Virus record (IMG/VR): IMGVR_UViG_3300040815_002710
Location: 1 to 34,645 of that record
Length of the DNA stretch: 34,645 nucleotides
Strand: one strand, 5' to 3'
Origin: a virus
This document shows positions 862-27,155 of this stretch, in pieces. Numbering within the stretch: position 1 is the first letter of the stretch; every line of letters begins with the position of its first letter. The position numbers and the translations under genes were made by a program. The notes beneath the pieces were generated by a model. The model saw only the letters and a list, made by a program, of their open reading frames with translations. It did no database searches and was not told the origin of the DNA.

Positions 862-1628
862 CGCCAGAACCCTTCCATATCAAGAATAATATCATAATAG
901 CCTTGTATGCCCTTTGAATATTTAGGCTCTGGTAATCGTCTAGGCCAGCAATAAAAGGCCGGTTCACCTCCTGTGAATGGTGCTTCGTTTCGGCTTGTGT
1001 CCCATATTATATAGATAGGGTACTGCTTCATGGTGTCTCTAAATTCCAAGAACTCACCAAGCCACGCTGAAGAATAATAGGGAAGATTGAACACGATACG
1101 ATCTAACCCGCTTTTAATCGTCATTCCCGCAAGCTCTTTGCCGCGTGTTACATTAGTTACAAGCTCGTCGCCATCGCTTAACCCTGGCCGAGTAAAACCA
1201 AACTTTTGCGATCTGTCCAATGAATAGCTTGGCCCCAAGAATATATCAGACATTGTTTTTTCTTGAGTCGTGTCTGAAAAAAGTATCTGAACATAGCGGT
1301 AAGACTGAGACCCAAGATCTACAAAAATATTTTTATCATATATGACGTTATAGGTTGTTATTATATTTGTATAGTCAACGCCGTTATTGCTGCCTGTTAC
1401 ATTGATATATGAGTTTGCCCCCATGTTATGTCGTGCTATTGCAAGACTATCAAAACTGAGCTGTGCGCCTAAATCATATGTGGTGCCCTGGTTGGTGCCG
1501 CTGTTGTATTTGACGAAAGTGGTTGTACGCCCATCGTAGGCGTTTTCAGGGCCAAAACCAGTAACGCTAACATCAGTCACAATAGAATCATTTCTTAATA
1601 AATTGTTATAGAGGATTCTACCGGCCAT
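858..1628 (-). CDS. Distal tail (Dit)-like protein with galactose-binding-like N-terminus, allele A
   Basis: This 256-residue protein follows the tape measure gene directly; the two genes share one base. Roughly residues 20-120 have the look of an F5/8 type C (discoidin, galactose-binding-like) jelly roll: AYDGRTTTFVKYN, a SLAIARHNMG strand, a TGSNNGVDY turn and a YRYVQILF strand. The C-terminal half has a conserved MKQYPIYIIWD and GEPAFYCWP segment. Position between tape measure and hub suggests the distal tail protein that joins tube and tip. A diverged version lies at 33473-34243; the two copies share start and end offsets and contain two compensating one-codon indels (MAGR versus MGR; WPRR versus WPAGK). 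Function is inferred from gene order and fold resemblance. Confidence 0.7.
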   Translation of the reverse strand: MAGRILYNNLLRNDSIVTDVSVTGFGPENAYDGRTTTFVKYNSGTNQGTTYDLGAQLSFDSLAIARHNMGANSYINVTGSNNGVDYTNIITTYNVIYDKNIFVDLGSQSYRYVQILFSDTTQEKTMSDIFLGPSYSLDRSQKFGFTRPGLSDGDELVTNVTRGKELAGMTIKSGLDRIVFNLPYYSSAWLGEFLEFRDTMKQYPIYIIWDTSRNEAPFTGGEPAFYCWPRRLPEPKYSKGIQGYYDIILDMEGFWR

Positions 1629-3406
1629 TATACGCTTATCCTTACGTTGCTATCATCTAAGCTATTAAGCTCATCGGCCAGTTCACGAAGCACGGAACGT
1701 GGTAGTAGCTCGCCTTCACCCTCGAATGCAACCGTGATCGTTTTTGTTGTCCGTGGTTCGTCGTTTGCGGCTAGATCTGTTACACCGTCAACGGTGGGCA
1801 GGTCTGGCACGCTTCCGCCGCTGGGCACGCTAGCGCCCCCGCCTGATCTTATTGCGCTCACTTGGGCGACACCTTGAGCAAGGTGTAAAGCAGCGGGCGC
1901 AAGGTTATAGGGGAAGGGGTAAGCCGCTAGCGTCCTGCTAACACCGAGATAAGTATTCATAACCGCCTCGGCGATTGCAAAGCCCTTGTTTTTTTGCCCC
2001 AGCATGCCCAGAAAACTAGCCGTTGCGGTTAGGGTTGCGGCCTGGCCTCGTTTTATGGCCATTTCTTTCTTTTTCTCTTTGTCCTCAATGAGCTTTTGTT
2101 CGTCGTTGTATGCCTTGGTTTTAACCTGTCGTGATAACTGCCAGAATCTCTGCTCGCTTAGCAGCTCCTCAGCCCTAAGATTCTCTAATGTGGCTAGCTG
2201 TTCTATCTTTTTGTCTTGTATTAGCTGAGTTTCGCTTGCGAATTGTTCTTCTATAGCTCCTAGTTTTTCAGTCCAATCGCCGCCAAATAGTGTATTTAGC
2301 CTGCCGTCTTCCTTCTTTTTGTTGTCCTCTGCGGCTTTTGCGTCGGCTTCCGCTTGGGTTTGGGCTAGGCGCTTGGCCTTGGCCTCTTCCTCTTGCTTTT
2401 CCTGATCTTCTATTATCTTGCGTTCTTTGTCGGCTAGCTCTTGTTTGGCTTCAATGCGATGTCGCAATAGCTCGATTTCTTCTAGGTGTGTTTTATTCGC
2501 TTTTTCTCTTTGGCGTATCGACAATATGTAATTGTCGTTATTCACCTTTATAGCTCGGTTGTGTTCTTCGATTTTCTTGGTGAGATCTTCAATAGTCGGC
2601 GCTTCGCCTATTTGCTCAATTTTTACGGTTAAAGTATTGATCAGCTCGGTGAATCTTGCGGTTGCTTCCTTAACAGACTTAGCCAGGCCGCTTTTTTCGG
2701 CAAATGCCACTGATAAATTGCTTACGGCGTCCTGAAAGGTGCTAAACATGCCGCTTAGGGTCTGCGCCTGCTTTTCCATTCCCCCAGCAAAGTTAGTGTT
2801 TCCAATGGATAACAAATACTTTTGTATTTCCTCTGCGTTCCGGCCCACTTCAGTGGTGACACCCTGAAAAGTGAACTTAACCTTGTCGCCTTGCTGGGCT
2901 GCTACAATGCCAAACTCGGCCAACCGGTCCATTTGCAGGGTTGCTGCGTCTGCTATGGCCTCGACGAATTGCAGCAAGGGTTTATTCATGGATGACGCTG
3001 TGTTACCCATAGACTCGATTGATCCGATTGCAGGATCCAAGCCACGGTTACGCATGATTATCGCGGCTTCGGTAACATCGGCAAGAGAATAGGGCGTCTC
3101 TGCGGCGAATTTCTTTAGCTCTTGGAATCGTCTTGCGGCCACTTCGGCACTACCGAACGCCGATTCCATACTAACGCCTAGAGATTCATAGCTTGCAGCC
3201 GTAGACACTATGCCCGTGCTGGCGTCTTTAATGGCTGTGACGGCCTTAACTACGGCATAGAGCACAGCGGCTTTTTTGCCTACGTCTGCCACTTTGGAAC
3301 CAAACTTCTTTACTGATTCCTGCGCGCGCTGTAGCTCTTGAACCATTTGGGCGCTATTGGCCTGCAGGTTAATCGCTAATGATGCTAGGGTTCGGGCCAA
3401 TGCCAA
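1628..3406 (-). CDS. Tail tape measure protein
   Basis: This 592-residue protein lies after the tail chaperone genes and before the tail-tip genes, the standard tape measure position. It has an N-terminal region typical of the family, a charged coiled-coil stretch from about residue 270 to 380 (rich in E, K, Q and A), and a hydrophobic segment near residues 465-515 (MLGQKNKGFAIAEA onward). At the usual ratio of about 0.15 nm per residue it would set a tail of roughly 90 nm, short for a siphovirus. No ATG is available near the start. The reading begins at TTG codons at 3406 or 3400, and the GAGG at about six to nine bases upstream favours 3400. The start overlaps the end of the GT chaperone frame by 38 bases. 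Confidence 0.9.
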   Translation of the reverse strand: MALARTLASLAINLQANSAQMVQELQRAQESVKKFGSKVADVGKKAAVLYAVVKAVTAIKDASTGIVSTAASYESLGVSMESAFGSAEVAARRFQELKKFAAETPYSLADVTEAAIIMRNRGLDPAIGSIESMGNTASSMNKPLLQFVEAIADAATLQMDRLAEFGIVAAQQGDKVKFTFQGVTTEVGRNAEEIQKYLLSIGNTNFAGGMEKQAQTLSGMFSTFQDAVSNLSVAFAEKSGLAKSVKEATARFTELINTLTVKIEQIGEAPTIEDLTKKIEEHNRAIKVNNDNYILSIRQREKANKTHLEEIELLRHRIEAKQELADKERKIIEDQEKQEEEAKAKRLAQTQAEADAKAAEDNKKKEDGRLNTLFGGDWTEKLGAIEEQFASETQLIQDKKIEQLATLENLRAEELLSEQRFWQLSRQVKTKAYNDEQKLIEDKEKKKEMAIKRGQAATLTATASFLGMLGQKNKGFAIAEAVMNTYLGVSRTLAAYPFPYNLAPAALHLAQGVAQVSAIRSGGGASVPSGGSVPDLPTVDGVTDLAANDEPRTTKTITVAFEGEGELLPRSVLRELADELNSLDDSNVRISV

Positions 3407-4081
3407 ATACCTCGCGTATTTCGTCGTCTAGTGTTTTTTCTTGCTCGTTTTTGCCGAATTTAGGCATAAAATCATCAACAGAATAGGCTTTACTTTTTGA
3501 TGATCTGTGGGCGTTTGCGATAGTTGAGGCGATAATCGCGCTTCGCACGTCGGCCCGGTAATCACCCCAAGGCTCTAGCCGCTCGTAGGCCATCGCCTCG
3601 CTGATGTCACTACTTGACATTATTTTTTTTAATATCGGGACCGGCCACCCAATCGCTAAAGCGTAACGGTGCAGAAATAGCGCTGTTGGCCGGTGCTTTA
3701 GTTTCCCGTTAGTTCCTCTATTTCAGCCGTGCCTATGTCGTTTAATGCCTGGCACGCTTGAAAAAGTCTATCAATAACGGCGCTGCTTTTGTTGCCAAGG
3801 GCCATCACGTGCGCGTCGGTTTTAAACATGCGCTTACCATCAGGCCCAACGGCACACGCGGCTATAAGTTTGGCGCGCGCGTTGCTTAGATCTTGCTGAA
3901 ACGTTCCTTCTTTGTTTTTGCTGTTGAATAGGCTCATTTCGTAAGCGTCGCGCGCTTCGCCGGTCATGCTCCGTATCACTACAAAAGTACCTTCGCCCCA
4001 TTCCGGGGTAGGAACCTGCTGTTCTACGGTGTCGTTTATGTTTAGTATGTCTTTAAGGTTTAGCTGTTTCGTTAAGCCCAC
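3369..4081 (-). CDS. Tail assembly chaperone GT fusion (programmed -1 frameshift)
   Basis: The G frame ends at 3698 with AAC TAA, directly preceded by a canonical slippery heptamer G GGA AAC in the zero frame. Slipping back one base reads through without a stop into the T frame, giving GKLKHRPTALFLHRYALAIG and then the FLxxx-MSSxxxSExMAYxRLEPWGDYRAD pattern typical of the T domain of siphophage tail chaperones. The fusion would be about 237 residues (127 of G plus 110 of T). In lambda the rare gpGT binds the tape measure and tail tube protein during tail assembly and is not in the virion. The T part has an internal ATG at 3620, but the conserved T residues upstream of it are only in frame after the slip, which supports the fusion. 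Confidence 0.88.
3698..4081 (-). CDS. Tail assembly chaperone G
   Basis: This 127-residue protein is encoded between the tail tube gene and the tape measure gene. It is the unshifted product of the frame described for GT, ending in EIEELTGN. Size, position and the slippery sequence at its last codons match lambda gpG-type chaperones, which coat the tape measure while the tube polymerises. Its start overlaps the end of the tail tube gene by ten bases. No catalytic motif is expected. Confidence 0.88.
   Translation of the reverse strand: MGLTKQLNLKDILNINDTVEQQVPTPEWGEGTFVVIRSMTGEARDAYEMSLFNSKNKEGTFQQDLSNARAKLIAACAVGPDGKRMFKTDAHVMALGNKSSAVIDRLFQACQALNDIGTAEIEELTGN
3701..3707 (-). promoter_or_regulatory. 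Slippery heptamer for -1 ribosomal frameshift
   Basis: On the minus strand this reads GGGAAAC, phased as G GGA AAC with the zero-frame stop TAA immediately after it. This is the X XXY YYZ form also used in lambda G/T (GGGAAAG there). The adjacent stop codon may help pausing. Conservation of T-domain residues immediately downstream in the -1 frame is the main support. Confidence 0.85.
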
Positions 4082-4488
4082 GTGGCCGCTCCGCTGATTC
4101 TAAGGCTAACCTCTAAGCTAATTTTATCGTCTACGGCTAACCCAATGTTGAATGTTTTAACGTAAGCGGAAAAACTTATTGTAGTTGGCCCGCTGTCCGT
4201 TAAGTCGAGTTCAAAATTCTTTATTGTTGCGCTATCTCGTGCCGTTCTTAGCGCAGTTTGTTGCGTGTCTCCGGTGTCTAAATTCATTGTTACGCTGATT
4301 TCGCCCTCATCTTTGAGGCCGATGATAAACTCCTTGCCGGTGCTGCTTAGGTCTGTTACGTCAATCTCAGAACCTGAACCGCCACCCAGACCGCTAACTC
4401 CGATCACCTCGCCTATGGCGGTAAAGGCTTCAGGGTCTCCCCCGTCGCCTAGTTTCAAAACGCTGCCTTGTGCCGTTAATGCTGCCAT
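4072..4488 (-). CDS. Major tail tube protein
   Basis: This 138-residue protein has the composition and motifs of siphophage tube subunits: GSVLKLGDG at the start, then an EIDVTDLSSTGKEF segment, DEGEISVTMN and a beta-rich C-terminal half (TTISFSAYVKTFN). These are the N-terminal strand and loop patterns of the lambda gpV/HK97 gp14-like tube fold. It would polymerise around the tape measure to form the non-contractile tail. It lies between the tail terminator gene and the G chaperone gene, with a two-base gap upstream and a ten-base overlap downstream. Confidence 0.85.
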   Translation of the reverse strand: MAALTAQGSVLKLGDGGDPEAFTAIGEVIGVSGLGGGSGSEIDVTDLSSTGKEFIIGLKDEGEISVTMNLDTGDTQQTALRTARDSATIKNFELDLTDSGPTTISFSAYVKTFNIGLAVDDKISLEVSLRISGAATWA

Positions 4489-4490
4489 GA

Positions 4491-4847
4491 TTACCCCCAG
4501 ATTGATGCTTGTGCTGTTAGTTGGTACTGCTCTGTTTCGTCGTTGTATCGGCCATCATCGACAGCGATCATAGTATGACGATAAGTGGTGCCCGTGTTTA
4601 ACGCTCCAGTGAGAGCGCCTAGAATGTTTTTAGTCTCTACGTAGCTGCGTCCGTGTATTTCGAACTCAAACACGATTTTTTGCAGGGTGCTTTCGCCGCT
4701 TAGGGTGTTTTGAATCTCTTTGTTGGCTTCGAACAATATTAGCGGGTAAGTGGGGTTAGGCGGAAGCATTCCACGGTATACGCGACCATTAATGTATGTT
4801 GTCAGTAGCGAGTCGCCTTTTAGGTCTGCTAGTACGTCGCTGATCAT
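4491..4847 (-). CDS. Tail terminator/completion protein (DUF3168-like)
   Basis: This 118-residue protein resembles the tail completion family: it opens MISDVLADLKGDSLLTTYIN, followed by GRVYRGMLPPNPTYPLILFE, and ends with a QYQLTAQASIWG strand. Family members cap the tail tube and provide the surface that joins the head. The gene sits between the HK97 gp10-like gene (four-base overlap) and the tube gene, the usual place. The assignment rests on size, order and the proline-rich early segment. Confidence 0.78.
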   Translation of the reverse strand: MISDVLADLKGDSLLTTYINGRVYRGMLPPNPTYPLILFEANKEIQNTLSGESTLQKIVFEFEIHGRSYVETKNILGALTGALNTGTTYRHTMIAVDDGRYNDETEQYQLTAQASIWG

Positions 4848-5392
4848 TGCGTTAGCCTGTCGATTTTTTTCGATAGTGATTTTTTAAATCGGTGCACGAA
4901 TTTTTCGCCGCCGTGCTGTTTCCAAGCCTTATTCATGAATAGTACGGGCTTCACTCTTCCTCGTTTGCGTCCTACTGACAAGTATTCACCCTTAATCTTT
5001 ATAACCCGCTTTGTTCTTTTGCCGCGCAAAACACCAATGTATGTGTTTAGGGCTTTCTGTCTGCGCCTTGGTACATCAGTTAAACGCTGCTTTGTTCCGT
5101 ATTCCATCAAATGCGCGTGCGGCGCAGCTCTTGAGCCGTTCGAATGAATACCTATAGTTAGCTGTGACGCTGTATCACCCGCTAACACTGAAACACCTCG
5201 GACCAACTTTGACGAGAAAACCGCCTTTTTTATCGTACCTGGCGCCCTGTCTTTTGCTGCCCTTTTCACCTTTCCGGACGCTGACACCAAGGCCTGATCA
5301 AGCGCTTTTTTGCCGCCAGTATTGGCCAGTTTCACAAGCTGGTCGTTTAGCTCTTTCAAGCCTTCTACTTTTATTTCAAGGTTAGCCGGCAT
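4844..5392 (-). CDS. HK97 gp10-like head-tail joining protein
   Basis: This 182-residue, very basic protein begins with a typical EIKVEGLKELNDQLVKL helix followed by the KALDQALVSASGKVKRAAK helix, the hallmark of the HK97 gp10/phi neck family. A central HAHLMEYGT segment, also characteristic (normally HxxxxExGT), is at about residue 90. It functions at the neck between head and tail tube. It overlaps its neighbours by 4 and 11 bases. Confidence 0.82.
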   Translation of the reverse strand: MPANLEIKVEGLKELNDQLVKLANTGGKKALDQALVSASGKVKRAAKDRAPGTIKKAVFSSKLVRGVSVLAGDTASQLTIGIHSNGSRAAPHAHLMEYGTKQRLTDVPRRRQKALNTYIGVLRGKRTKRVIKIKGEYLSVGRKRGRVKPVLFMNKAWKQHGGEKFVHRFKKSLSKKIDRLTQ

Positions 5393-5714
5393 AACGTCTT
5401 ATAGACACCTCTAATAATTCGTCTCTGTTTTGCACGTTCATTACACCTAGAACGTCGAACGCTTCACCGTCCCACAATAGGCGGTCATCGGTTAAAAGTG
5501 TCTTTGTTTCAGGGTCTAATCGGATTATTGCAAACCCGGTACGCTGGGCAAAATCCTGATCATTTTTGAATGTTTCGGTCGCGTTGTTTATTTGAATATT
5601 TGCCCAGCGAGAAAAAAGCGGCGTCCACGTTTCTACGGTGCTGCCTTCTGCGTCTGTGGTTGTGCTCAACCTTTCAAAAGACACACGTGTGTCAAACCTG
5701 CCAGCGTCCATCAA
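5382..5714 (-). CDS. Head closure/head-tail adaptor protein
   Basis: This 110-residue protein has the signature of the SPP1 gp16/phage head-tail adaptor family: an initial RFDTRVSFERLSTTTDAEGS, then a W-T-P-L-F-S-R-W-A-N segment, and a final LEVSIRRY strand. It binds below the connector and closes the filled head. It is encoded between the gp6-like connector (four-base overlap) and the gp10-like gene (11-base overlap), as in other HK97-type genomes. Confidence 0.82.
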   Translation of the reverse strand: MMDAGRFDTRVSFERLSTTTDAEGSTVETWTPLFSRWANIQINNATETFKNDQDFAQRTGFAIIRLDPETKTLLTDDRLLWDGEAFDVLGVMNVQNRDELLEVSIRRYAG

Positions 5715-6262
5715 AACACCTGATTGTTTGTGATACCTAACAGGGCGTCGGCCCCGTTCGGCGTCTTTTTAAAATCTAGGTCGCTTATATCCTCGCGGTT
5801 TTTATACCAGCCCGCAGCAATCATTAAAATCGCGTGTTTGTGATGCTCTAATGGCTGGGCTTTACCGCAAGTTATATCAATTTGAACCGCGTCGTGTATC
5901 TCGGTGCTTGTAGTTGGCCAAGAGTCTACGGCGCTTAATAGGGTGTATGTGGTGCCTATTGCTGATCTGTAGGCGGACGTGTCAAGCGTTTGTATTGCGT
6001 TGTCGCCGTCGTAGTACCTTACGGCGTCGATTGAGATGACAGGCCCTAAATGTATCGTTATTTTCGACTCGAAACGCTCTAGGCATAGCGTCCACTTTTG
6101 GCGAGATATCTTGTAATTTATTACCCCCTCGCAATACTGGCGCGCAGCCGTGATATATGAGCGCAACAAAGTGTTTTCGTGGTCGTGCTCGATCCGGCAT
6201 TGTCGCTTAAGCTCGTCAACGCTTACCGGTTCACTTTTTGGGGCTTCGAGTAGTCTTAACAC
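5711..6262 (-). CDS. Head-tail connector (HK97 gp6-like)
   Basis: This 183-residue protein opens with LRLLEAPKSEPVSVDELKRQ and LLRSYITAARQYCEGVINY, the first helices of the HK97 gp6 adaptor family, and ends with the helix around HAILMIAAGWYKNRED. A ring of gp6 attaches to the portal after DNA packaging. It overlaps the preceding small gene by 32 bases and the head closure gene by four. Confidence 0.82.
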   Translation of the reverse strand: MLRLLEAPKSEPVSVDELKRQCRIEHDHENTLLRSYITAARQYCEGVINYKISRQKWTLCLERFESKITIHLGPVISIDAVRYYDGDNAIQTLDTSAYRSAIGTTYTLLSAVDSWPTTSTEIHDAVQIDITCGKAQPLEHHKHAILMIAAGWYKNREDISDLDFKKTPNGADALLGITNNQVF

Positions 6263-6440
6263 TGGGGGCCGCCTTCCTAGTTGTTGCTGTCTCTACTTTT
6301 GGCGCGATTGGCTCGCATACGCCTTTGCTGATCATTCTAGCTACTTCGTCTGGACTAAAAAAAACGGACACGTCCAAAACATCGCCAGGGTGAGCGGTGA
6401 AATTAGGCCCCGACATGCTTACCTTAAAGTGTACTTTCAT
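6231..6440 (-). CDS. Small protein between capsid and connector genes
   Basis: A 69-residue product starting MKVHFKVSMSG. I use the ATG at 6440 because GGGGGA lies just upstream; an earlier TTG in frame is less likely. The N-terminal half contains GPNFTAHPGDVLDVSVFFSPDE, and the C-terminus is lysine and threonine rich and probably disordered. Small genes here in HK97-like genomes often encode head-associated or Rho-N-like proteins, but nothing in the sequence fixes a role. Confidence 0.7.
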   Translation of the reverse strand: MKVHFKVSMSGPNFTAHPGDVLDVSVFFSPDEVARMISKGVCEPIAPKVETATTRKAAPSVKTTRSPKK

Positions 6441-6492
6441 AAATCCCCCGAACAATAGCGGCCATTCCTGGCCGCTATTATTTTGTAACGTA

Positions 6493-7698
6493 TTACGCTG
6501 CGGCTTGAGTCAACGCGCGCAACTTAGCCGTGTTGAGCAACCGTCCGTCGGCTCGCTCGATAGCTTGGAAACCTACTTGGTCGTTTGCTGCGTATAGCTC
6601 GACAAGTCGTTTCATCCTCAAGCCCGCAACGCGTCGAATCGCATAGCCGGACAAATCACCGAACACAATAGACTTACTTGACGCCGCCATGTTTGGCATA
6701 CCCTGATCAACAACGTATGGGTTGCCGTCAAGCGTGGCCGGTAGAGTCGCGGCTACGTCAGGCTGCCACAATTTTCTGCCGTCGCTATCTGCAAGCTTTT
6801 TGACTGCTAGCAAGGTGTTGTCGTTCATTACCCATCGGCCCATTGCTTGGTAGACAGGGTCTACGCTGTGTTTAAGCTCTAAAAGCTCATCATATGTTAC
6901 TGCTGCGACCGCTGCGGCTGTTACTCCGCTTGTAGCCGCGTTGATACCTTGTGGCTGTGATGATCCAGTGCCAGCCGCAAAATGTGCCGCCTCACCTCTG
7001 CCAAGCCTCTCGCCTAACATCACTGCTAGGTGTGATTCCAAATCAAAGGCATTATCCATAAGCAGTTCATGCGAGACTTTAATAATGTTTGACGTGTATT
7101 TGTAGGCCAACATTCTGATCTCACCAAAAACGGTATCTTGTTCGCTGTCTGCTGCATTTTCCGCAAGAATGCTGCCACTATTGCTAGTATCGTCATTTGT
7201 TGGAATAGGCAAATCAGAACCAGTGCCAGTGTTGAAAACTGTTGCGTATTGCTCGATACCACCGTAAGCAGCACGAACCTTTTCAACCATTGCTACAAAA
7301 TCGTCCGGTACTAAGTACCCGCCTTCGCTGTCGGTTCCTTTAGATTGCGCCCTAACTTCAGCAAACACGCTGCGTTCTTCAGCGTTTAGGCCATTCAATC
7401 CAGGCTCTACGCTTCGGATCATGGCGCCGAATGCTTCAGAATAGCTAGGCTTTTTAGGCTGAGACTGTTCGATAGTGATCAGGCCGCGCTCTTGTACTTC
7501 CTCAAGATCTGGCAGACTTTTTAATTTCTCGGCGCGCTTGATCATTTCATCCAGGCTATCAACGCGGGCTAGCATCTTATCCCACTTTTCAGACTCGTCT
7601 GAGGTAAGGCCGCGTTGCTCTTTTACTGCCTCGGCGTCAATAGCTCTCATTTGTGTCGCAATCTCGTTGCGCTCTTGCTTCATGTCTTGCATTTTCAT
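6493..7698 (-). CDS. Major capsid protein, HK97 fold
   Basis: This 401-residue protein starts with a coiled-coil region (about residues 1-70, MQDMKQERNEIATQMRAID), the delta domain that acts as internal scaffold and is removed by the prohead protease. The mature part includes GGYLVPDDF, a segment present in most HK97-type capsids, and ends with the V-E-L-Y-A-A-N-D-Q-V-G-F strand. Length is normal for the family. It follows the protease gene after a 57-base gap that contains no other gene. Confidence 0.92.
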   Translation of the reverse strand: MKMQDMKQERNEIATQMRAIDAEAVKEQRGLTSDESEKWDKMLARVDSLDEMIKRAEKLKSLPDLEEVQERGLITIEQSQPKKPSYSEAFGAMIRSVEPGLNGLNAEERSVFAEVRAQSKGTDSEGGYLVPDDFVAMVEKVRAAYGGIEQYATVFNTGTGSDLPIPTNDDTSNSGSILAENAADSEQDTVFGEIRMLAYKYTSNIIKVSHELLMDNAFDLESHLAVMLGERLGRGEAAHFAAGTGSSQPQGINAATSGVTAAAVAAVTYDELLELKHSVDPVYQAMGRWVMNDNTLLAVKKLADSDGRKLWQPDVAATLPATLDGNPYVVDQGMPNMAASSKSIVFGDLSGYAIRRVAGLRMKRLVELYAANDQVGFQAIERADGRLLNTAKLRALTQAAA

Positions 7699-7755
7699 TT
7701 TTGGCCCCTTTATTGTGCTTATATGGGTTTTATCGTTTGTTACTCTGCTATGGAG

Positions 7756-8325
7756 TTAATCAGCCCATCTATGGGACCGTATACGCTCCAAAACTGCGCG
7801 GCGTTCTGTCGCGCTGGCTTTGGTTTTTACGTATTCTTTTAAGCTGCGAGCGGCGGCGGTTGCGTCGGTGTAAGCGGGGTATGTAACCGGGCTAACATCA
7901 TAAAGCTGTGCCACTCGGTTAACTATTCTTATTATTTTATCGCCTTCGGTGCGCCATTCGTCGCCGTCTTTGGCGACAGTGAATGCAAAGCTTGATTGTG
8001 TAACGTCGCCGCGCTTAACGCTTTGTAGTAAGTCGTTGGCATAGGTGGTATCAGGAAAGTCTACCTCATAACCTAGCCCGCCATTATCTACAAATAGGTT
8101 AAGGGTTCCCGATGTTGTTCGGCCTAAAATCAGGTTAGCGTCATGATTAAAAAGGGCCCTTACGTCATCATTTAGGCGATCTGCGAAAGCGTTTTCGTGT
8201 ATGATCTCTACAAAACCGCCTAAGTCTTGCGATTTTCTGTTAAAAACGGACGCGTAACCTTTTACGCTTCTGGTCTCGTCTAAGTTTTCAATATTTGCGG
8301 TAAATGTCCGGCGCTCAATCTCCAT
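7756..8325 (-). CDS. Prohead protease (HK97 family, S78-like)
   Basis: This 189-residue protein has the HK97 prohead protease pattern: VKGYASVFN near residue 21, the catalytic His in LFNHD (His61) and the catalytic Ser in QSSFAF (Ser111 or Ser112). It cleaves the delta domain of the capsid protein during prohead maturation and digests itself. It lies between portal (11-base overlap) and capsid genes as expected. Confidence 0.9.
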   Translation of the reverse strand: MEIERRTFTANIENLDETRSVKGYASVFNRKSQDLGGFVEIIHENAFADRLNDDVRALFNHDANLILGRTTSGTLNLFVDNGGLGYEVDFPDTTYANDLLQSVKRGDVTQSSFAFTVAKDGDEWRTEGDKIIRIVNRVAQLYDVSPVTYPAYTDATAAARSLKEYVKTKASATERRAVLERIRSHRWAD

Positions 8326-9817
8326 AATACACCCCTAACGTCTGAGTTATAATTTCGGGCGTCATGCCGCCGTTTTTTTTGTTTTCGTTCCCACTTTCCC
8401 AAATTTTGTAATCTGTTACAAATGATTCTAGCACGTCATTGCGATCAAATGCGTTGCAAATGGGGCCAAGGTTTCTATTTATGAACACCTCACCGTCCCA
8501 CCCTGCGCTTGATTTTTTAATAGCTCGGCTCATCTTTTCCGCGAAGCTTTCAAACAAGGGCAAAGGGTCTGCCGCTCTGGCATCGCTTCCGCTTTCGGGC
8601 TCCGTTACGCTCTCTACGGGTTCGCCGTCGTCGTCGGTTTCTATCATGTTAAGAGGTACTAGAACGGTGTCTAACCCATCTATTGGGTTAAGGTTTCTCG
8701 ACTTTCGTGCCTCATTTCGCGTAATGATTCCAGCATTCGTTAATGATACGTCGGCCTCGGCTTCCTCTTTGGGTGTGCCGCGCAACACTTTTGACCGGTC
8801 GAACAACATAGAAAGCGTTTTTTGCTCTCGCGTGCTGAATATCTTATAACTTGCTTCCTGTTCCCACTGGATAAACCAAGGGGTTAGCGTCCGGCGTACA
8901 AAATTTATTGATTCCTCTGTAATGTTGCTGAAGGTCGCTTTATCAAGTAAGCCCATCATCGAGGGCGGCACACCAAATATCTGGGCTATTTGATTGCTGC
9001 CGAATGTCCTAGACTCCAAAAACTGGGCCTCTTCTGGTGGTATCCCAATTCTCTGGTATTCCATGCCGTTAGATAGTACCGGGGTCTGGTGTCGGTTTCC
9101 TGTGCCGCCAAATACGCTTTTCCAGCTCTTTTTTATCTCGTCTCTGTGTTCGGCCTTAATCGCGCCGGGTATCTTTAGATAACCCTGAATAACCGCGCCA
9201 TTACCGAAAAACTCGGCCCCGTAGTTCTGCGCTGCTATCTGTATGCCTATTTCTTCAGCGTGCTGCCTGATCGGGCTAGTGCCTGTAAACCCGTCGCTGC
9301 CTATACACTTAATGTGCAGAACTTCATCGTGACTTAGTATTATTTGTGTGGGGTTCGCCTTGCCTAGTAGCTGGGTGCGGTAGTATATCTGCCCCTCATG
9401 CTCTAACACTGAAGTTGCCCAAGGCGCCAAGGGCCAAAGCGCTACAGGCATGCCGCGCTGATCGAACTCTATAAACGCGTAACCGTTACCCCATCTTAAA
9501 GCGTGGCTTTGTATTAGCTGTATGAGAATATAAGCGCTCATGAAAGGGTTAGCGCGAAGTTTGAAAACACGATATGCCGGGTGATCGTCGGCTAATGTGG
9601 TGCTTCCGCTTCTAGTTCTGTATGGCAAAAAGGGCTGTGCGGCCACAAAATCACTGATTACCTTAACCGCCGCGCCTACTGCGGCTAGCTGCATGGCTGA
9701 GTGCTCATTGACGGTTACGCCGCTATGGTTTGGGCTGTAGTTGAAAACGCTCGATAATGCCGGGTCTGTGCTGCTGTATAGGGCCTGGCGCTTGAATAGG
9801 TTTGTGATCCACTTCAT
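8315..9817 (-). CDS. Portal protein (HK97 gp3 family)
   Basis: This 500-residue protein has family features including HSAMQLAAVGAAVKVISD near residue 40, GNGYAFIEF, a DEVLHIKCIGSDGFTGTSPI segment and FGVPPSMMGLLDKATFSN around residue 280. It forms the dodecameric ring at one capsid vertex through which DNA is packaged and onto which the neck assembles. Length is slightly above the usual 400-450, with an acidic C-terminal tail (EPVESVTEPESGSD). It overlaps the terminase gene by four bases. Confidence 0.93.
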   Translation of the reverse strand: MKWITNLFKRQALYSSTDPALSSVFNYSPNHSGVTVNEHSAMQLAAVGAAVKVISDFVAAQPFLPYRTRSGSTTLADDHPAYRVFKLRANPFMSAYILIQLIQSHALRWGNGYAFIEFDQRGMPVALWPLAPWATSVLEHEGQIYYRTQLLGKANPTQIILSHDEVLHIKCIGSDGFTGTSPIRQHAEEIGIQIAAQNYGAEFFGNGAVIQGYLKIPGAIKAEHRDEIKKSWKSVFGGTGNRHQTPVLSNGMEYQRIGIPPEEAQFLESRTFGSNQIAQIFGVPPSMMGLLDKATFSNITEESINFVRRTLTPWFIQWEQEASYKIFSTREQKTLSMLFDRSKVLRGTPKEEAEADVSLTNAGIITRNEARKSRNLNPIDGLDTVLVPLNMIETDDDGEPVESVTEPESGSDARAADPLPLFESFAEKMSRAIKKSSAGWDGEVFINRNLGPICNAFDRNDVLESFVTDYKIWESGNENKKNGGMTPEIITQTLGVYYGD

Positions 9818-11520
9818 ACGACTAGCAGCCCCTCGCTAAAGTCTAGGTTTTCATCTCGGTAAGCCATAGCCCTCGCAACGCCCATTATCGCGCCTACAAT
9901 ACCGTCGATTTTTTCTGATGATCTCGCTTTTCTTGGATAGAGGTTGTCACCTAAATCTCTACGTATTTGCACGTTGCTGAGCATCCAATTCATAACCGGG
10001 TTGCCGTCATGCCGCAATCGTTTACTTTTTACAGCGGCCTCGATTTCATACATTGCCGCGCTCATGTTCTTGGCGGTCTGCTGAAATTCTAACACGGGCA
10101 GGTCTTCATCTGCTAAATTTTGGGCTAGGTAAGTGGCGTTCCAAGGATCATAGGGTATTTCTATAGCGCCATATTTTCGGCAGTCTGCCAATATATGCTG
10201 CTTAATAAATTCGAAGTCGATTTCTTCGCCTTCGCTTGTTATGACGTGTCCTGATATGTCCCATGATTCATACTTTCCACTTTTTTCACTCATACAAGCC
10301 GCTTTAGGTATGAAAAACTTTGGAAAAACCCTGTATAACATCTTGTCGTCTACAAGCTTGAAAAACACCTTTACATAGGCGGCTATATCGCACTTTGACG
10401 CCAGATCAATGCCGTGCATGCAATCCCAGCCTATGTACTTGTCCGGGTCTGGGTCCGTTCCGCACGCTTCCCAAGCTGCGAAGGATAGCCAGGCCTCGCC
10501 AGCCGCTACCCACTTGTTAAGGTGCTTTGTTAAAAAGGCGTTTTGTTTCTTTGGGTCTCTCCGGGCGTCGTTCAACTGATCCTCTAAAAACTCCCGGCTG
10601 ACGCTTACGCCTAAGTTTGGGTTAGCTTTTATCAGGTTTTCGGGGTCTTCCCAATTGTCGCTTAGTTCGCCGTCTCGCTGGCTTTGCTCTATCTCGTAAA
10701 TGATTGCAAAAAGCCGGTCATCTTCCTCGCTGCCCTCAAGTACCTTTTTGCATAGTGCATACTCGTCATAACATGGCCCGTCAATGTTGAACCCTGCCGT
10801 TGTTATAATTAGCAGCAAAGGCGAGCCGCCCATTGATCTAGCGCCCATTCCAGTAATGAAACAATCTACCATACTATTGTCAGAGTGCTGGTGGTACTCG
10901 TCAACGATAGCCGCGTGCGGACTACCTCCGTCCTTCGGTTGTCCTATTACCGGCTCAAAAAAACCATTGTCGCTCTGTCTTATAATCTGACTTTTTAGCG
11001 CTTTTACGTCATAGTGCTCGCATAGCTCCGGCGTTTTTTCGCACATTATCCTAGCCGGGGTGTAAACCTCCATTGCTTGGCGCTTATTCGTCGCGCCACA
11101 ATACACCTCTGCGCCGTGCTCTCCATCTTCTGTTAGCATGTACAGGCCTATACCTGCCGCAAAAATTGATTTTCCGTTTTTTCTCGCTACTTGGATATAT
11201 GCCTTTCTGTATCGCCTTGTGCCGGTTTCCTTGTCCACCCACCCAAAAATGTTTCCCAGTACAAACGACTGCCAAGGCTCTAACTTGATAGTTTCCCGGC
11301 GCCCTGCCCATTGGCCTTTGGTGTGCGGTAGCAGCTCTATAAAATTGCATACGTTTTCGGCCAAGCTTGGCCTGAACTCCCACTTGTAGGTGTCGTCTGC
11401 GCTTTTGTCTAGGTCATCTATGAATCGCTGACAGGCTAATATAACCGCCTTGCATGCCTTGATCTTACCGTCAGTTATATCAAGCGCATATTGCGCTAGC
11501 CTTTCTGTGTGACTTGTCAT
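9814..11520 (-). CDS. terL: Large terminase subunit
   Basis: This 568-residue packaging motor has an ATPase domain with a Walker A motif VARKNGKS at residues 111-118, a Walker B AIVDE at 204-208 and a coupling motif ITTAG at about 239-243. A C-terminal RNase H-like nuclease begins at GIDLAS (370-375) and continues to the acidic DGIVGAI near residue 540. It cuts concatemers and drives DNA through the portal. It belongs to the HK97/P27-associated TerL group. The small terminase gene ends one base upstream and the portal gene starts in a four-base overlap. Confidence 0.95.
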   Translation of the reverse strand: MTSHTERLAQYALDITDGKIKACKAVILACQRFIDDLDKSADDTYKWEFRPSLAENVCNFIELLPHTKGQWAGRRETIKLEPWQSFVLGNIFGWVDKETGTRRYRKAYIQVARKNGKSIFAAGIGLYMLTEDGEHGAEVYCGATNKRQAMEVYTPARIMCEKTPELCEHYDVKALKSQIIRQSDNGFFEPVIGQPKDGGSPHAAIVDEYHQHSDNSMVDCFITGMGARSMGGSPLLLIITTAGFNIDGPCYDEYALCKKVLEGSEEDDRLFAIIYEIEQSQRDGELSDNWEDPENLIKANPNLGVSVSREFLEDQLNDARRDPKKQNAFLTKHLNKWVAAGEAWLSFAAWEACGTDPDPDKYIGWDCMHGIDLASKCDIAAYVKVFFKLVDDKMLYRVFPKFFIPKAACMSEKSGKYESWDISGHVITSEGEEIDFEFIKQHILADCRKYGAIEIPYDPWNATYLAQNLADEDLPVLEFQQTAKNMSAAMYEIEAAVKSKRLRHDGNPVMNWMLSNVQIRRDLGDNLYPRKARSSEKIDGIVGAIMGVARAMAYRDENLDFSEGLLVV

Positions 11521-17913: not shown

Positions 17914-18282
17914 TTACCTTCGCGCGTTCAACCTGCAAAGGTAATCATAAAATAATTGTTGCGCTACTTCCCTACCTATCTGCACCTGGCGCAATGTCTG
18001 CTCTGTTCGCCTTGCAATATCCCGATCAGTGCAGCGGGAATAATATTTTAGCCGCAACAGCCCTGCATGCTTCTTATTGTGCGGGTTATCCGCTGTCATG
18101 GTGCATAGCGCAAGCTCGGCAAGCTGAGCCAGGTCATCATCAAGAACTAGGGCGCCCGATCCGACGTTGTAGAAGTTTGCCCTACTCTTGTAGCCTAATC
18201 TTGTTTTGCCTGATCGGGACCAATCGCCCCAATTTTCAAGCACGCGCACGCAGTCATTGTATAAAATCATCGACGCCCCCAT
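17914..18282 (-). CDS. Late gene regulator, Q-antiterminator-like
   Basis: This 122-residue protein is the last gene of the early operon, immediately before the late promoter and terminator. It begins with a CVRVLENWGDWSR helix and ends with a probable helix-turn-helix, where TDRDIARRTEQTLRQVQIGREVA would be sigma region 4-like. It also has the LRLKYYSRCTDRDIA spacing seen in Q and RinA-type late regulators. Such proteins load on RNA polymerase at the late promoter and allow read-through of the leader terminator. The start overlaps the nuclease gene by 16 bases. Similarity is by pattern and place; an activator rather than an antiterminator is possible. Confidence 0.7.
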   Translation of the reverse strand: MGASMILYNDCVRVLENWGDWSRSGKTRLGYKSRANFYNVGSGALVLDDDLAQLAELALCTMTADNPHNKKHAGLLRLKYYSRCTDRDIARRTEQTLRQVQIGREVAQQLFYDYLCRLNARR

Positions 18283-18554
18283 TTATTTATCACCTCCTGT
18301 GCGTGCGCAATCACGTCGTCTACAGTCCTAACTACACGGTAATCACCGCGCCATTTTGACCTAAAATCAATTTGTGATTGTCTAAGCTTTCCTGTTTTTG
18401 TTTTAACCTCTACGAGATAATTAATATTGAACTTAGCAACGACTAGATCAGGAAACCCATCACCCGACGCGCTCAAATCGGCCACGCTAAACCCGTGCAC
18501 TAGATAAGCCTGAATTATATCACTCTGGTTAGAGTCGACGCGCTTAGCTCTCAT
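18267..18554 (-). CDS. VRR-NUC/PD-(D/E)XK nuclease-like protein
   Basis: This 95-residue protein has a compact nuclease core: GDGFPDLVVAK (Asp about residue 36) followed by INYLVEVKTKTGKLRQSQIDF, giving the D...ExK(T) signature, and a QxxF helix. VRR-NUC-like phage proteins act on branched DNA as junction resolvases or recombination nucleases. It overlaps the upstream HNH-like gene by four bases. Size is small but normal for single-domain phage members. Confidence 0.8.
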   Translation of the reverse strand: MRAKRVDSNQSDIIQAYLVHGFSVADLSASGDGFPDLVVAKFNINYLVEVKTKTGKLRQSQIDFRSKWRGDYRVVRTVDDVIAHAQEVINKWGRR

Positions 18555-18934
18555 CCCCTAGCGTACCTCAGACACGCGCTCATAACGTCAATATCAAACG
18601 GCAAGGGACTGCAATACTCTTGTATATAAGACTCACAAGCCCACACAAACAACTCAACCTCTAAACCTTTTCGCGCTGATCTTGCCATGCGACTAGACAA
18701 AATCAACGCCATACCTGCCCTGTTGCTCGTTCGGTTAATCGGGCCTAGCCGGTGCCAATACGGCGACAACGGACAAACAAACCACTGGCCTATTCTCACA
18801 TTATCAACGCGAGCACTTGCACCGCCCAAATGATCAATCTCTGCAGGGCCGCCCCCCAAGATGCAGCCCATTTTTGCTAGGTCATCATGCCACCGCTTTT
18901 GCGCTGCGCTAGCTCTGTGGTTTTTGGATATCAT
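18551..18934 (-). CDS. Ref/Nin-type HNH-like recombination protein candidate
   Basis: This 127-residue protein opens KNHRASAAQKRWHDDLAKMG-C, followed by EIDHLGG, a VCPLSPYWHRLGP segment and a long C-terminal helix. The arrangement resembles phage HNH-like recombination proteins (P1 Ref, DUF968-type), where Cys, DH and CPxHH coordinate metal. One usual Cys of the first CxxC is not present (CILGG). Its place between replication genes and the resolvase-like gene fits DNA recombination. The assignment is tentative. Confidence 0.6.
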   Translation of the reverse strand: MISKNHRASAAQKRWHDDLAKMGCILGGGPAEIDHLGGASARVDNVRIGQWFVCPLSPYWHRLGPINRTSNRAGMALILSSRMARSARKGLEVELFVWACESYIQEYCSPLPFDIDVMSACLRYARG

Positions 18935-19099: not shown

Positions 19100-19321
19100 C
19101 TAATTATGATCACTGAAATACCTCGCTACGATTTTCTGTAGTGCGTCGAGTTTTTCCGGGTCCGGCTCGCGATCACCTACCAAGGAGAAGGCCGCGTCGG
19201 CCACCTCATACAACCTGGCAATCTCCGCAAGCGACTGTTCAAGCAATTGCACGCCCTGCTTGTGTTTACTCTTGACCGGAACTCGCACCAAGTAATTTTG
19301 TAAATCCTCAATCAACTGCAC
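19100..19321 (-). CDS. Small acidic helical protein after the replication gene
   Basis: A 73-residue product from a GTG start with a G-rich ribosome site, overlapping the replication gene end by ten bases. It is predicted mostly helical (LLEQSLAEIARLYEVADAAF) with an acidic centre (GDREPDPEKLDAL). In lambda the next gene is the helicase loader P, but this protein is far too short to be one. No family is recognised. Confidence 0.65.
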   Translation of the reverse strand: MQLIEDLQNYLVRVPVKSKHKQGVQLLEQSLAEIARLYEVADAAFSLVGDREPDPEKLDALQKIVARYFSDHN

Positions 19322-20568
19322 GCACCACCCCCCAAACTATCTAGCTTTGCTTTCGCCTTTTCGATTATCTCTTGTAAACCCTTGTAAGCCCTCGACCCTT
19401 CCGGCGCCTGCCGCAATTGATCCGTAAATCCTTTTATCTCTTGAATAAGCTCTCTGCGCTCCTGTGCGGCCTGATCAATCACACCCGCACCCTTACCACC
19501 CCCGCGTGCTTTATTTTCAACAGCGGGCAAATCAGGCTTGTTCTGCTTGATCTTTTCGGCCCCTGGTCTGCAAGGCGCATACAATCGCTTGTGATCTCTA
19601 GCAATTGAGTCTTCGAGTATTTCGTGCTGAGCCCACCCCTGAGCCATCAGGTGAGCCAGTCGGCGACATTCGAGCGCTTTTTGTGATTCGCTGTAGCTGC
19701 CAGCGGTGCGGCGTTGCTCTACCCACGTGTCCCACAAGTCGGCGAGCACCCACGATGGTTTAACAAATGATTCGCCATTGGCGGGTAGGCTCACACCGTA
19801 GTTTGGTGGTTGCCCTGGTTGATCAGTGCTTGGTGTTCGCTGGGTGGTAGGTTTAGCTCCCACTTGGCCAGCATTGGGTGTTTTTTGTTCTTTAGCCAAA
19901 ATGGGGTTTTCTCTCTCTCCGGGCTCGGCGCCCTCGTCCACCCCCGTCTTGTTAGTTGGTACAGTGTTAGGAGAGAGAGTATTAGTTATATATTTATTAT
20001 TAGTTATGTGTGCCCCTGAGGGGTATACCCCTAAAGGGCACACGGTGGATTCATTTTGGCTATATTCCTGCTCACCTGTCACCGATGACCCCTTTTGAAC
20101 ACCCTCCACCGTGTGCCCTTTAGGGTCACACGGTTCCTCCTGAGCACCCCCGTTACATTGTCCTACACCCTCAGACCCGCGCGTAATGGGGGCTTCGTCC
20201 GTATCCCCTTTATGGGCACACGGTTCAGTAGGCACCGTGTGCCCCTTAGGGGCACGCGGTGAGGTGTGATCGTTTTGCTGCTTGGTTTCGTATATCTCAT
20301 AGGTGCAGCTATCAAAGGCGCCTTGTGATCTGTCCTGTACCCTTCTGCAGTATCCAGCCGCAATAAGGTCATTAAGTATTCTGTAAACCTTTTTACGTCC
20401 TACGCTGAAGGTCTTCATGATGTGCTTGACGTTAACTTCCCAGTTATCAGGCTTACCTAACAGGTACACGTGAAGGCCTTTGCAATCTAGGTCAATGCTG
20501 GTGTCGTCAATGGTAGACATGTGAACTACTAGGAACTGTTCTCGCTTTACTGTTCTTATTATGCTCAT
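19312..20568 (-). CDS. Replication initiator with internal origin
   Basis: This 418-residue protein has an N-terminal winged helix domain (about residues 1-95; KHIMKTFSVGRKKVYRILND is the helix-turn-helix). Residues 100-250 form a Pro/Gly/Thr-rich linker with PKGHT and HKGDT-type repeats. The charged helical C-terminal domain (PSWVLADLWDTWVEQRRTAG to about residue 415) may bind the host helicase or loader. The linker DNA carries five palindromic iterons and an AT-rich element. That layout, binding domain, origin-encoding linker and protein-interaction domain, is the one known for lambda O. Translation is coupled to the preceding gene by an ATGA overlap. Confidence 0.8.
   Translation of the reverse strand: MSIIRTVKREQFLVVHMSTIDDTSIDLDCKGLHVYLLGKPDNWEVNVKHIMKTFSVGRKKVYRILNDLIAAGYCRRVQDRSQGAFDSCTYEIYETKQQNDHTSPRAPKGHTVPTEPCAHKGDTDEAPITRGSEGVGQCNGGAQEEPCDPKGHTVEGVQKGSSVTGEQEYSQNESTVCPLGVYPSGAHITNNKYITNTLSPNTVPTNKTGVDEGAEPGERENPILAKEQKTPNAGQVGAKPTTQRTPSTDQPGQPPNYGVSLPANGESFVKPSWVLADLWDTWVEQRRTAGSYSESQKALECRRLAHLMAQGWAQHEILEDSIARDHKRLYAPCRPGAEKIKQNKPDLPAVENKARGGGKGAGVIDQAAQERRELIQEIKGFTDQLRQAPEGSRAYKGLQEIIEKAKAKLDSLGGGACS
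19981..20008. other. AT-rich DNA-unwinding element candidate
   Basis: 25 of 28 bases are A or T, inside an otherwise GC-balanced coding region and directly beside the innermost iteron. This matches the AT-rich region next to the lambda iterons where the helix first opens. It encodes residues near 187-196 of the initiator. Confidence 0.7.
20005..20260. repeat. Five palindromic iterons (replication origin candidate)
   Basis: Imperfect 27-base palindromes, with arms ACCGTGTGCCC and GGG(G/T)CAC(A/G)CGGT around a TTA centre, lie at 20234-20260, 20198-20224 (left arm degenerate), 20108-20134, 20020-20046 (inverse orientation, one arm degenerate) and 20005-20031. The last two overlap. Centres are at 20247, 20211, 20121, 20033 and 20018. 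All lie in the linker of the initiator gene, as lambda iterons lie in O. Confidence 0.75.
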
Positions 20569-21023
20569 AACACACCCCCGTTGCCGTTATTAGCTGCTGG
20601 GGTGTCGTTTCGGTAGCTGGCGGGTGTAGCCATAGATTTGTTGTATTGCTGACACCAGTCAAGCCACTGCATCACAGCCAGGCCTATAGTGTGCAGATCG
20701 TGATCGGTAGGTCTTCCTAGGTGTTGGCTGAGTACCCCCTCAAGGGTGGCTAGGTGTATCCCTTCTAATGGCAATGTAGGTATGCTTTTAGGGGTAGCCG
20801 TAGCTTGTGAAAACGTCTGGCCAATAGTGGCGCAGTGCTCGCCTATTTCTTGGGCGTACTCTTGAAAGGTGTCGATTAATGCGTCGGCCTGCTCTTTGCT
20901 GTCGTCGTGCAGTGACGCGATACGGTACAAGTTAGCAAAGGCGCTAATCTTACCTGCTAGGGCTTCAATTCTGTCTATGGAGTCAATTAGGTCGTGTGCG
21001 GGCGCACTGGTGGTATTAGGCAT
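20565..21023 (-). CDS. Unknown protein upstream of replication gene
   Basis: A 152-residue protein, mostly helical (IDSIDRIEALAGKISAFANL; KEQADALIDTFQEYAQEIGE), with a low-complexity N/G/T C-terminus. It is the first gene after the terminator and structured leader and is translationally coupled by ATGA to the replication initiator. It may modulate replication or copy control, but no family is recognised. Confidence 0.75.
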   Translation of the reverse strand: MPNTTSAPAHDLIDSIDRIEALAGKISAFANLYRIASLHDDSKEQADALIDTFQEYAQEIGEHCATIGQTFSQATATPKSIPTLPLEGIHLATLEGVLSQHLGRPTDHDLHTIGLAVMQWLDWCQQYNKSMATPASYRNDTPAANNGNGGVL

Positions 21024-21300
21024 GGTCTGCCTCCCTTTGTAGTGTCGTTCCGGCCTCGCTCCGGTTCGAATCGGAGGGAGGCCAACCAGTCAGGTTCGAA
21101 CTACCGCACAAAGGGAACGGCCCCACGAATGGGCCTAACTGGTCAGCCATAACAGGTACAGCAGACACAAAAAAAGCGCTTGTACAGTATAACAGGCGCT
21201 TTGTCGCCTTTGTAATCGGGGTTCGAATCCCGGCAGCGGATTTTGCCGCTGCCCTTTCAGTATGTGTCGATCGGATTCTGTAGTCAATGATCAATTTAGC
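21024..21300 (-). ncRNA. Structured leader with tRNA T-arm-like hairpins
   Basis: This ~310-base gap holds a terminator and several inverted repeats, and no convincing gene. At 21052-21083 there is a 12-base-pair hairpin with one G.G mismatch and an eight-base loop GTTCGAAT, like a tRNA acceptor/T-arm minihelix. TTCGAA recurs in similar settings near 21096 and 21222. CCCTTTGT and ACAAAGGG near 21033 and 21110 could close a larger structure, and 21232-21253 is an 8-base-pair hairpin. No complete tRNA can be folded. It may be a regulatory leader of the replication operon; which strand is functional is unknown. Confidence 0.35.
21169..21202 (-). terminator. Intrinsic terminator upstream of replication operon
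   Basis: On the minus strand an 11-base-pair stem (21202-21192 with 21183-21173, one G.T pair), an eight-base loop and T7 (21175-21169). It lies between the 83-residue gene and the replication genes, where it would limit replication gene expression unless antitermination occurs. Confidence 0.85.
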
Positions 21301-21334
21301 GTCAATGTGCGTCATGGTGACAAATGAGCCTTTG

Positions 21335-26624: not shown

Positions 26625-27155
26625 ATGAGTGATACATCTACAGCAATTGCGAGTTTCATTTGTTTAACCGGCATGGCAGGGCTTTTTTTCAGCGACTGGA
26701 TAGGAGAGGCGTTGCCGCCATTGAATGGGGCTGGCGGTAATGGAGATTCGACATGCTATGCATCGGGGGACGCTGGGCATCGAGGGCACCCAAACTATCA
26801 TCTACTCACTAGCTATGGGGTAGATAGCAAAAAAGACACCTGGCGCCTTATGACTCAATCTCACTCTGACTTTAGGGAAAGCGCTCGCCAAGACTTCGAA
26901 AGCGGTAGATTTTTAGCGCAAGAAAGATTATGGGCACCAGCTAAATGCCACAATCCTCAGTCAAGGAGCTGCGGAAAATGGCCTAGAACTGTTTACAAGA
27001 ACATTCAAAGAGGTCGCTTTCCTGGGGTCCACACAATTCAAGACTGGGAGAGACTACAGGGGAATTCAAATCTATCGGTTTACGGTAAACCGATAGATTG
27101 CAGTATGAGCTATAGACAAGCTGTCCTGTTTCATAACGGTAGGGTTGAGGGGTAG
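26625..27155 (+). CDS. Unknown exported or membrane-anchored protein
   Basis: A 176-residue protein with AAAGGA eight bases before its ATG. The first ~28 residues are hydrophobic (TAIASFICLTGMAGLFFSDW), consistent with a signal anchor. The rest is polar, rich in W, H, R and S (KDTWRLMTQSHSDFRESARQ, GRFPGVHTIQDWERLQG) with several Cys. No family recognised. A 31-base perfect palindrome lies within its 3' part. Confidence 0.55.
   Translation: MSDTSTAIASFICLTGMAGLFFSDWIGEALPPLNGAGGNGDSTCYASGDAGHRGHPNYHLLTSYGVDSKKDTWRLMTQSHSDFRESARQDFESGRFLAQERLWAPAKCHNPQSRSCGKWPRTVYKNIQRGRFPGVHTIQDWERLQGNSNLSVYGKPIDCSMSYRQAVLFHNGRVEG
27069..27099. repeat. 31-base perfect palindrome inside coding sequence
   Basis: Arms AATCTATCGGTTTAC and GTAAACCGATAGATT (15 bases each) surround a single G at 27084, with no mismatch. 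It encodes residues of the 176-residue protein. Such a perfect structure is improbable by chance in 35 kb and could be an operator, a recombination site or an mRNA hairpin. Confidence 0.85.

Follow-up and report, generated by a model that had tools for sequence, protein, structure and literature searches.

A candidate replication origin with divergent iterons embedded in the initiator gene of a temperate tailed phage

Within a 34,645-bp viral contig (IMG/VR record IMGVR_UViG_3300040815_002710, hereafter the window), a minus-strand gene of 418 codons (19312-20568) encodes a putative winged-helix replication initiator, and the linker DNA of this gene carries ten copies of a half-site, ACCGTGTGCCCY, arranged as five dyads next to an AT-rich block. 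We read this site, with a probability of about 0.86, as the place from which an uncultured temperate tailed phage begins theta-type replication, inside the very gene that encodes its initiator, because the repeats exceed those of synonymous shuffles, the dyads lie in two reading frames, no other repeat cluster of the kind exists in the window, the protein is akin to gp20 of Staphylococcus phage 80alpha, and the layout is that of the family. It would be best described as an origin of known type with a divergent iteron, and no related phage found here uses the same repeat sequence.

Iteron dyads and AT-rich block

The repeats lie in the linker of the winged-helix protein gene at the five centres given by an earlier note on this DNA: 20247 (dyad 1, 20234-20260), 20211 (dyad 2, 20198-20224), 20121 (dyad 3, 20108-20134), 20033 (dyad 4, 20020-20046) and 20018 (dyad 5, 20005-20031), with spacings of 36, 90, 88 and 15 bp. 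That note had described all five as imperfect 27-base palindromes, which holds for the distal three only: dyads 1 and 3 are strong (12/13 and 11/13 complementary) and dyad 2 is moderate (9/13, one full half-site), while dyads 4 (7/13, one full half-site) and 5 (8/13), which overlap at 15-bp pitch, are weak and indeed unremarkable as palindromes, because the window contains 643 27-mers with 7/13 and 147 with 8/13. The overlapping pair is real through its intact half-sites, not its palindromy: each member retains one, GTGTGCCCC at 20008 in one case and AGGGCACACGGT at 20035 in the other. The two are oppositely oriented, point apart and flank a shared degenerate inner GGGGTATACCCC.

Among direct repeats of at least 18 nt within 600 bp, the dyad cluster was the only such family in the window, and the full 27-mer pattern was expected to match 0 times by chance. 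When the window was scanned with a half-site matrix, the ten top-scoring positions were the half-sites of the cluster and the next match outside scored lower, although the scan is partly circular since the matrix was built from the same ten arms. No DnaA boxes were found near the iteron site.

Palindromes of 27 bp within the linker of a protein are reminiscent of intragenic palindromic elements, and the dyads could accordingly be read as in-frame insertions of a mobile element (like the repetitive extragenic palindromic, REP, or Rickettsia palindromic, RPE, elements). However, the window holds no further full copy, and the 11 and 3 contigs returned by iteron pattern scans of IMG/VR include none with a gene for a related initiator, which shows that the pattern is not abundant in viral contigs; such an origin of the repeats is hardly credible.

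Immediately past the repeats, as the gene is read, and adjoining dyad 5, lies a putative DNA unwinding element (19980-20007) in which 26 of the 28 bases are A/T (not 25, as first counted). It carries TATTAGTTAT twice, 18 bp apart, and occupies the same position in relatives. Its coding strand reads CATAACTAATAATAAATATATAACTAATACT and that of the 80alpha counterpart TTTAACTAATAATAACAATACTAATAATG; on the minus strand, TAACTAATAATAA is common to this block and the 80alpha origin. Beyond the block there is a 10-bp perfect inverted repeat (CTCTCTCTCC at 19911-19920, GGAGAGAGAG at 19970-19979), which could be due to chance.

Constraint on the DNA beyond the encoded protein

Repeats in the initiator gene were evaluated against a null model in which the protein was held fixed and synonymous codons were shuffled (5000 shuffles), 7-mer repeat matches being counted. 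In codons 95-205, inverted matches numbered 50 (7.8 +/- 4.0 under shuffling) and direct matches 32 (9.1 +/- 4.5 under shuffling), and none of the 5000 shuffles reached either count, so that the repeats exceed both chance and what the protein requires. No repeat excess over synonymous shuffles was present in codons 0-95; in codons 205-418 the inverted excess was absent and the direct excess milder (38 vs 20). At the scale of the dyads, the strongest 27-mer palindrome was reached by 1.6% of the synonymous shuffles, and the number of 27-mers with at least 9/13 by 0.7%. As a control, the 7-mer test on lambda O detected its known iterons (direct z 7.9).

Similar peptides are encoded at three of the dyads, as would be seen if the repeats were a by-product of a repetitive linker peptide (PKGHTV, CAHKGD, CDPKGHTVEG). 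Yet the dyad centres are 0, 0, 0, 2 and 2 modulo 3, so that the three distal dyads share a reading frame that differs from that of the proximal pair, and near-identical dyad DNA encodes PKGHTV in one frame and CPLGVYPSGAH in the other. Because the dyads thus occupy two frames with different peptides, and with the inverted-repeat count beyond every synonymous shuffle, a peptide by-product has next to no likelihood. The palindromes might alternatively function at the RNA level, as hairpins of the transcript (in attenuation, stability or translational control), and the transcript of 19980-20270 does fold better than 200 of 200 shuffles (z -7.5). But any DNA palindrome yields stable folding, and the overlapping pair has lost its complementarity yet keeps one half-site per member, which fits recognition by a protein better; we regard the hairpin explanation as very improbable.

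The initiator and its family

The product of the gene was assigned through PHROG replication initiation families (phrog_4707, phrog_428 and phrog_678) and a BLASTP match of 3e-11 to 80alpha gp20. Its predicted N-terminal winged-helix DNA-binding domain (codons 1-98; 20275-20568, minus strand) was defined from an AlphaFold2 model, Foldseek and a profile of 50 relatives: residues 1-98 matched phrog_4707 at 1.6e-11 and phrog_428 at 2.1e-9, and the model (predicted local distance difference test, pLDDT, 82) is a winged helix of helices and a two-strand wing. The C-terminal domain (codons 270-361; 19486-19761, minus strand) may contact the helicase or its loader, a function suggested by PHROG matches (phrog_18589 at 1.4e-5 over 270-361, and a weak match to the primosomal protein family phrog_6451, 0.022, over 219-333).

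When the profile of the 50 relatives was compared via hhalign, the probability was 99.7% for 80alpha gp20 vs 0.3% for lambda O; moreover lambda O matches PF04492 (Phage_rep_O) at 123 bits, a family that the window protein does not match. Therefore the initiator is by sequence of the 80alpha gp20 type and not lambda O, to which a remote link exists through the O-like phrog_678 (match at 50-351). No match of the window protein to Pfam RepA_N was found at E 0.1, and none to PDB sequences at E 1. The proposal that this is a lambda-O-like origin inside an initiator gene consequently stands in its layout, which relatives and 80alpha strongly support, and falls as to the protein, which by sequence belongs to the 80alpha gp20 family and would be lambda-O-like only in its working.

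Relatives of the winged-helix domain were collected from 387 IMG/VR stretches (80 kept) and 45 GTDB loci, and layout was counted on 67 non-redundant genes. The AT-richest 28-mer fell within codons 95-200 in 61 of the 67 (23.5 expected if uniform), and this AT peak is preceded by arrays of CCG-N4-CGG and CGG-N5-CCG dyads alternating at 15-bp pitch. Both core dyads were more frequent in the 67 genes than in synonymous shuffles (170 vs 79 for CCG-N4-CGG, 156 vs 73 for CGG-N5-CCG); at least two were present in 50 relatives and fewer than two in 17, so that the core is usual but not defining. In a set of 78 genes, which are not independent of one another, 59 exceeded their own synonymous null at 0.05. 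The layout of winged helix, repeats and AT-rich block, in this order, recurs across the 67 relatives and in the window, and the overlap of dyads at 15-bp pitch, which the earlier note had thought unusual in the pair by the AT-rich part, is the rule in this initiator family.

On the other hand, the window initiator gene contains 0 CCG-N4-CGG and 0 CGG-N5-CCG. Its dyads are instead longer, dispersed palindromes with a CCC-N5-GGG core, the 15-bp spacing being kept only at the AT-proximal pair. Dispersed palindromes are nevertheless not unique to the window, because two phages with related terminases (L106, 4777-5778, and L107, 5628-6527) encode distant winged-helix initiators whose linkers carry other, GTGCAATATTTGCAC-type palindromes and CNICTH-like peptides, apparently another iteron vocabulary. 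The real departure of the window is thus its iteron sequence, together with the length and wide spacing of the three distal palindromes. No published description of this iteron was found among open-licence papers, so its novelty is not proven. Residue 59 of the recognition helix was considered as the sole specificity switch and rejected in that role, which it keeps as a hypothesis only: CGG-based cores often persist in relatives that have E, S, H, A or Y at this position.

The AT-rich element of the family, which follows the iterons without a gap in between, carries TAGTAAATACTGA-like copies at ~18-bp spacing and in two reading frames (relatives L014-L098 and L157-L200). In a 46-gene set, some 7-mers were above synonymous expectation (among them AAATACT, in 9 genes vs 0.5, and TACTGAA, in 11 vs 1.0), the 18-bp periodicity was 0.353 vs an expectation of 0.328 +/- 0.005, and AGTAA was found in two frames. 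These are hints that the AT-rich block may be read as a specific sequence. DnaA-trios consist of 3'-G/A-A-T-5' (PMC10797057), and the possible likeness of the AT-block motif to them is only a lead.

The family layout also bears on whether the palindromes might be operators for the initiator's own transcript, bound by the initiator or by a phage regulator, with the origin located elsewhere. Long palindromes are typical of operators, and winged-helix folds resemble repressors of the MarR/Fur type; but the dyads lie 300-560 bp inside the gene, where no promoter excess was seen, their position matches that of the relatives' repeat arrays and AT-rich block (including the annotated 80alpha origin), and the window has no other repeat cluster. 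We hold the operator explanation to be improbable, if somewhat less so than the hairpins.

Several observations weigh against an embedded origin: i) the winged-helix fold is generic, and Foldseek against solved structures returned generic winged-helix matches only, none with E <0.001; ii) no helicase loader gene was recognised beside the initiator, unlike in lambda and in 80alpha, where a DnaC-like loader gene lies directly downstream; iii) full-protein searches of IMG/VR and of GTDB genomes found no close relatives that might share the window iterons, and the 45 loci of the alignment-based GTDB scan are all at most 49% identical in the winged-helix domain; iv) third-codon-position GC skew of minus-strand genes displays no clear switch between the left (-0.09) and the right (-0.14) of the site. 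The cumulative GC skew minimum (20178 detrended, 20579 raw) agrees with the site, but this support is weak and counts little because of the third-position result.

Comparison with known origins

The closest counterpart is 80alpha, whose ORF20 is essential and whose ORF20 mutant was not complemented in trans, which its authors read as an embedded origin; they also describe ORF20 as a homologue of SPP1 G38P, with lambda O unrelated (PMC5499656). The 80alpha GenBank record places rep_origin at 9674-9899, at codons 79-154 of gp20. The two systems share a homologous winged-helix N-terminus, a corresponding position of the annotated or proposed origin within the gene, an AT-rich block after the repeats and the TAACTAATAATAA run; they differ in that 80alpha has short repeats of the ACCGTTAACGGT type where the window has long dispersed palindromes, and in the C-terminal domain, which in the window has no Phg_2220_C match.

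The lambda origin likewise sits in mid-gene, where inverted-repeat iterons precede an AT-rich tract, as they do along the window gene. Its iterons are 19-bp imperfect inverted repeats (PMC7466680), so that palindromic form, which the earlier note had counted as a difference, is common to both. In lambda the iterons measure 18-19 bp at 20-24 bp spacing, whereas those of the window measure 27 bp, and homology of the N-terminus of lambda O to that of the window protein is undetectable. SPP1, which was compared by description only, has oriL within gene 38, with direct repeats and an AT-rich unwinding element (PMC6316719); unlike the window, it possesses a further origin, oriR, and itself encodes a loader and a helicase. 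RepA_N initiators (those of pSK41 and pTZ2162, and RepA of the V. cholerae phage-inducible chromosomal island-like element, PLE) resemble the window in their N-terminal DNA-binding domain and in the semi-palindromic form of their iterons, and repeat 3 of PLE RepA has 13-bp inverted arms (PMC7145576). However, their iterons converge on a poly-A tract whereas the window centre is CTTAG-like, the PLE repeats lie in a non-coding region, and the window protein has no such Pfam or PDB sequence match.

Proposed mechanism

From architecture and homology we infer binding, melting, helicase recruitment and origin activity as follows. The winged-helix domain, presumably dimeric, would bind the ACCGTGTGCCC half-sites of the five dyads; the bound initiator would bend the region into a compact, O-some-like complex over ~250 bp; this complex would melt the AT-rich block beside the proximal pair; and the C-terminal domain would bring in the host DnaB helicase, either directly or via a host loader, two routes proposed because no phage loader gene was recognised.

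A bolder scenario is tentative and, in our judgement, probably wrong in at least some part: the initiator may have changed its DNA recognition (Lys for the usual Asp at 59, CCC/GGG for CCG/CGG), the compact 15-bp array having given way to long palindromes over 250 bp with one 15-bp pair left at the unwinding element, and the family AT-block motif (TAGTAAATACTGA / ACTAATAATA, ~18-bp spacing, two frames) might reflect strand-specific recognition of opened DNA like that of DnaA-trios.

The phage and neighbouring features

The window is from a temperate tailed phage with genes for terminase, portal, major head protein, tape measure, integrase, S24-type repressor and antirepressor. Its terminase has its top matches in phages of Paraburkholderia, Pseudomonas and Vibrio (44-46% identity), and at the DNA level the early region matched none of 50,697 phage records. 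The best terminase relative, IMG/VR contig L099 (10.3 kb), is over its positions 1-10311 100% identical to window positions 12758-2448 and ends before the initiator; the same virus was thus assembled from another metagenome too and has been seen more than once.

Upstream of the initiator, positions 21169-21252 (minus strand) match Rfam RF01394 (isrK) at 62.9 bits (gathering threshold 50; E 5.5e-12); the match, read as an isrK-like prophage RNA, overlaps an open reading frame (ORF; 21016-21315, minus strand) with a weak Pfam Ash match. Downstream of the initiator, 18267-18934 (minus strand) contains a VRR-NUC Holliday-junction-resolvase-like gene and a weak match to Ref-type RecA-dependent nucleases; in the P. 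atacamensis relative, too, the initiator is followed immediately by a Ref-family nuclease. The sole 13/13 palindrome of the window, the perfect 27-bp TCTATCGGTTTACGGTAAACCGATAGA, lies at 27071-27097 within an ORF (26625-27155, plus strand) whose protein has no known function.

Implications

Origins within initiator genes are an established phage strategy, and to our knowledge few have been dissected beyond those of lambda, SPP1 and 80alpha. The present analysis suggests a rule by which embedded origins may be spotted in phages of many bacteria, namely a winged helix, repeats and an AT-rich block in order, with the repeats above synonymous shuffles. The window phage would be a case whose iteron departed from the usual sequence of its family, and it makes two questions testable: which residues of the recognition helix set iteron specificity, and whether or not recognition of the unwinding element depends on its sequence.
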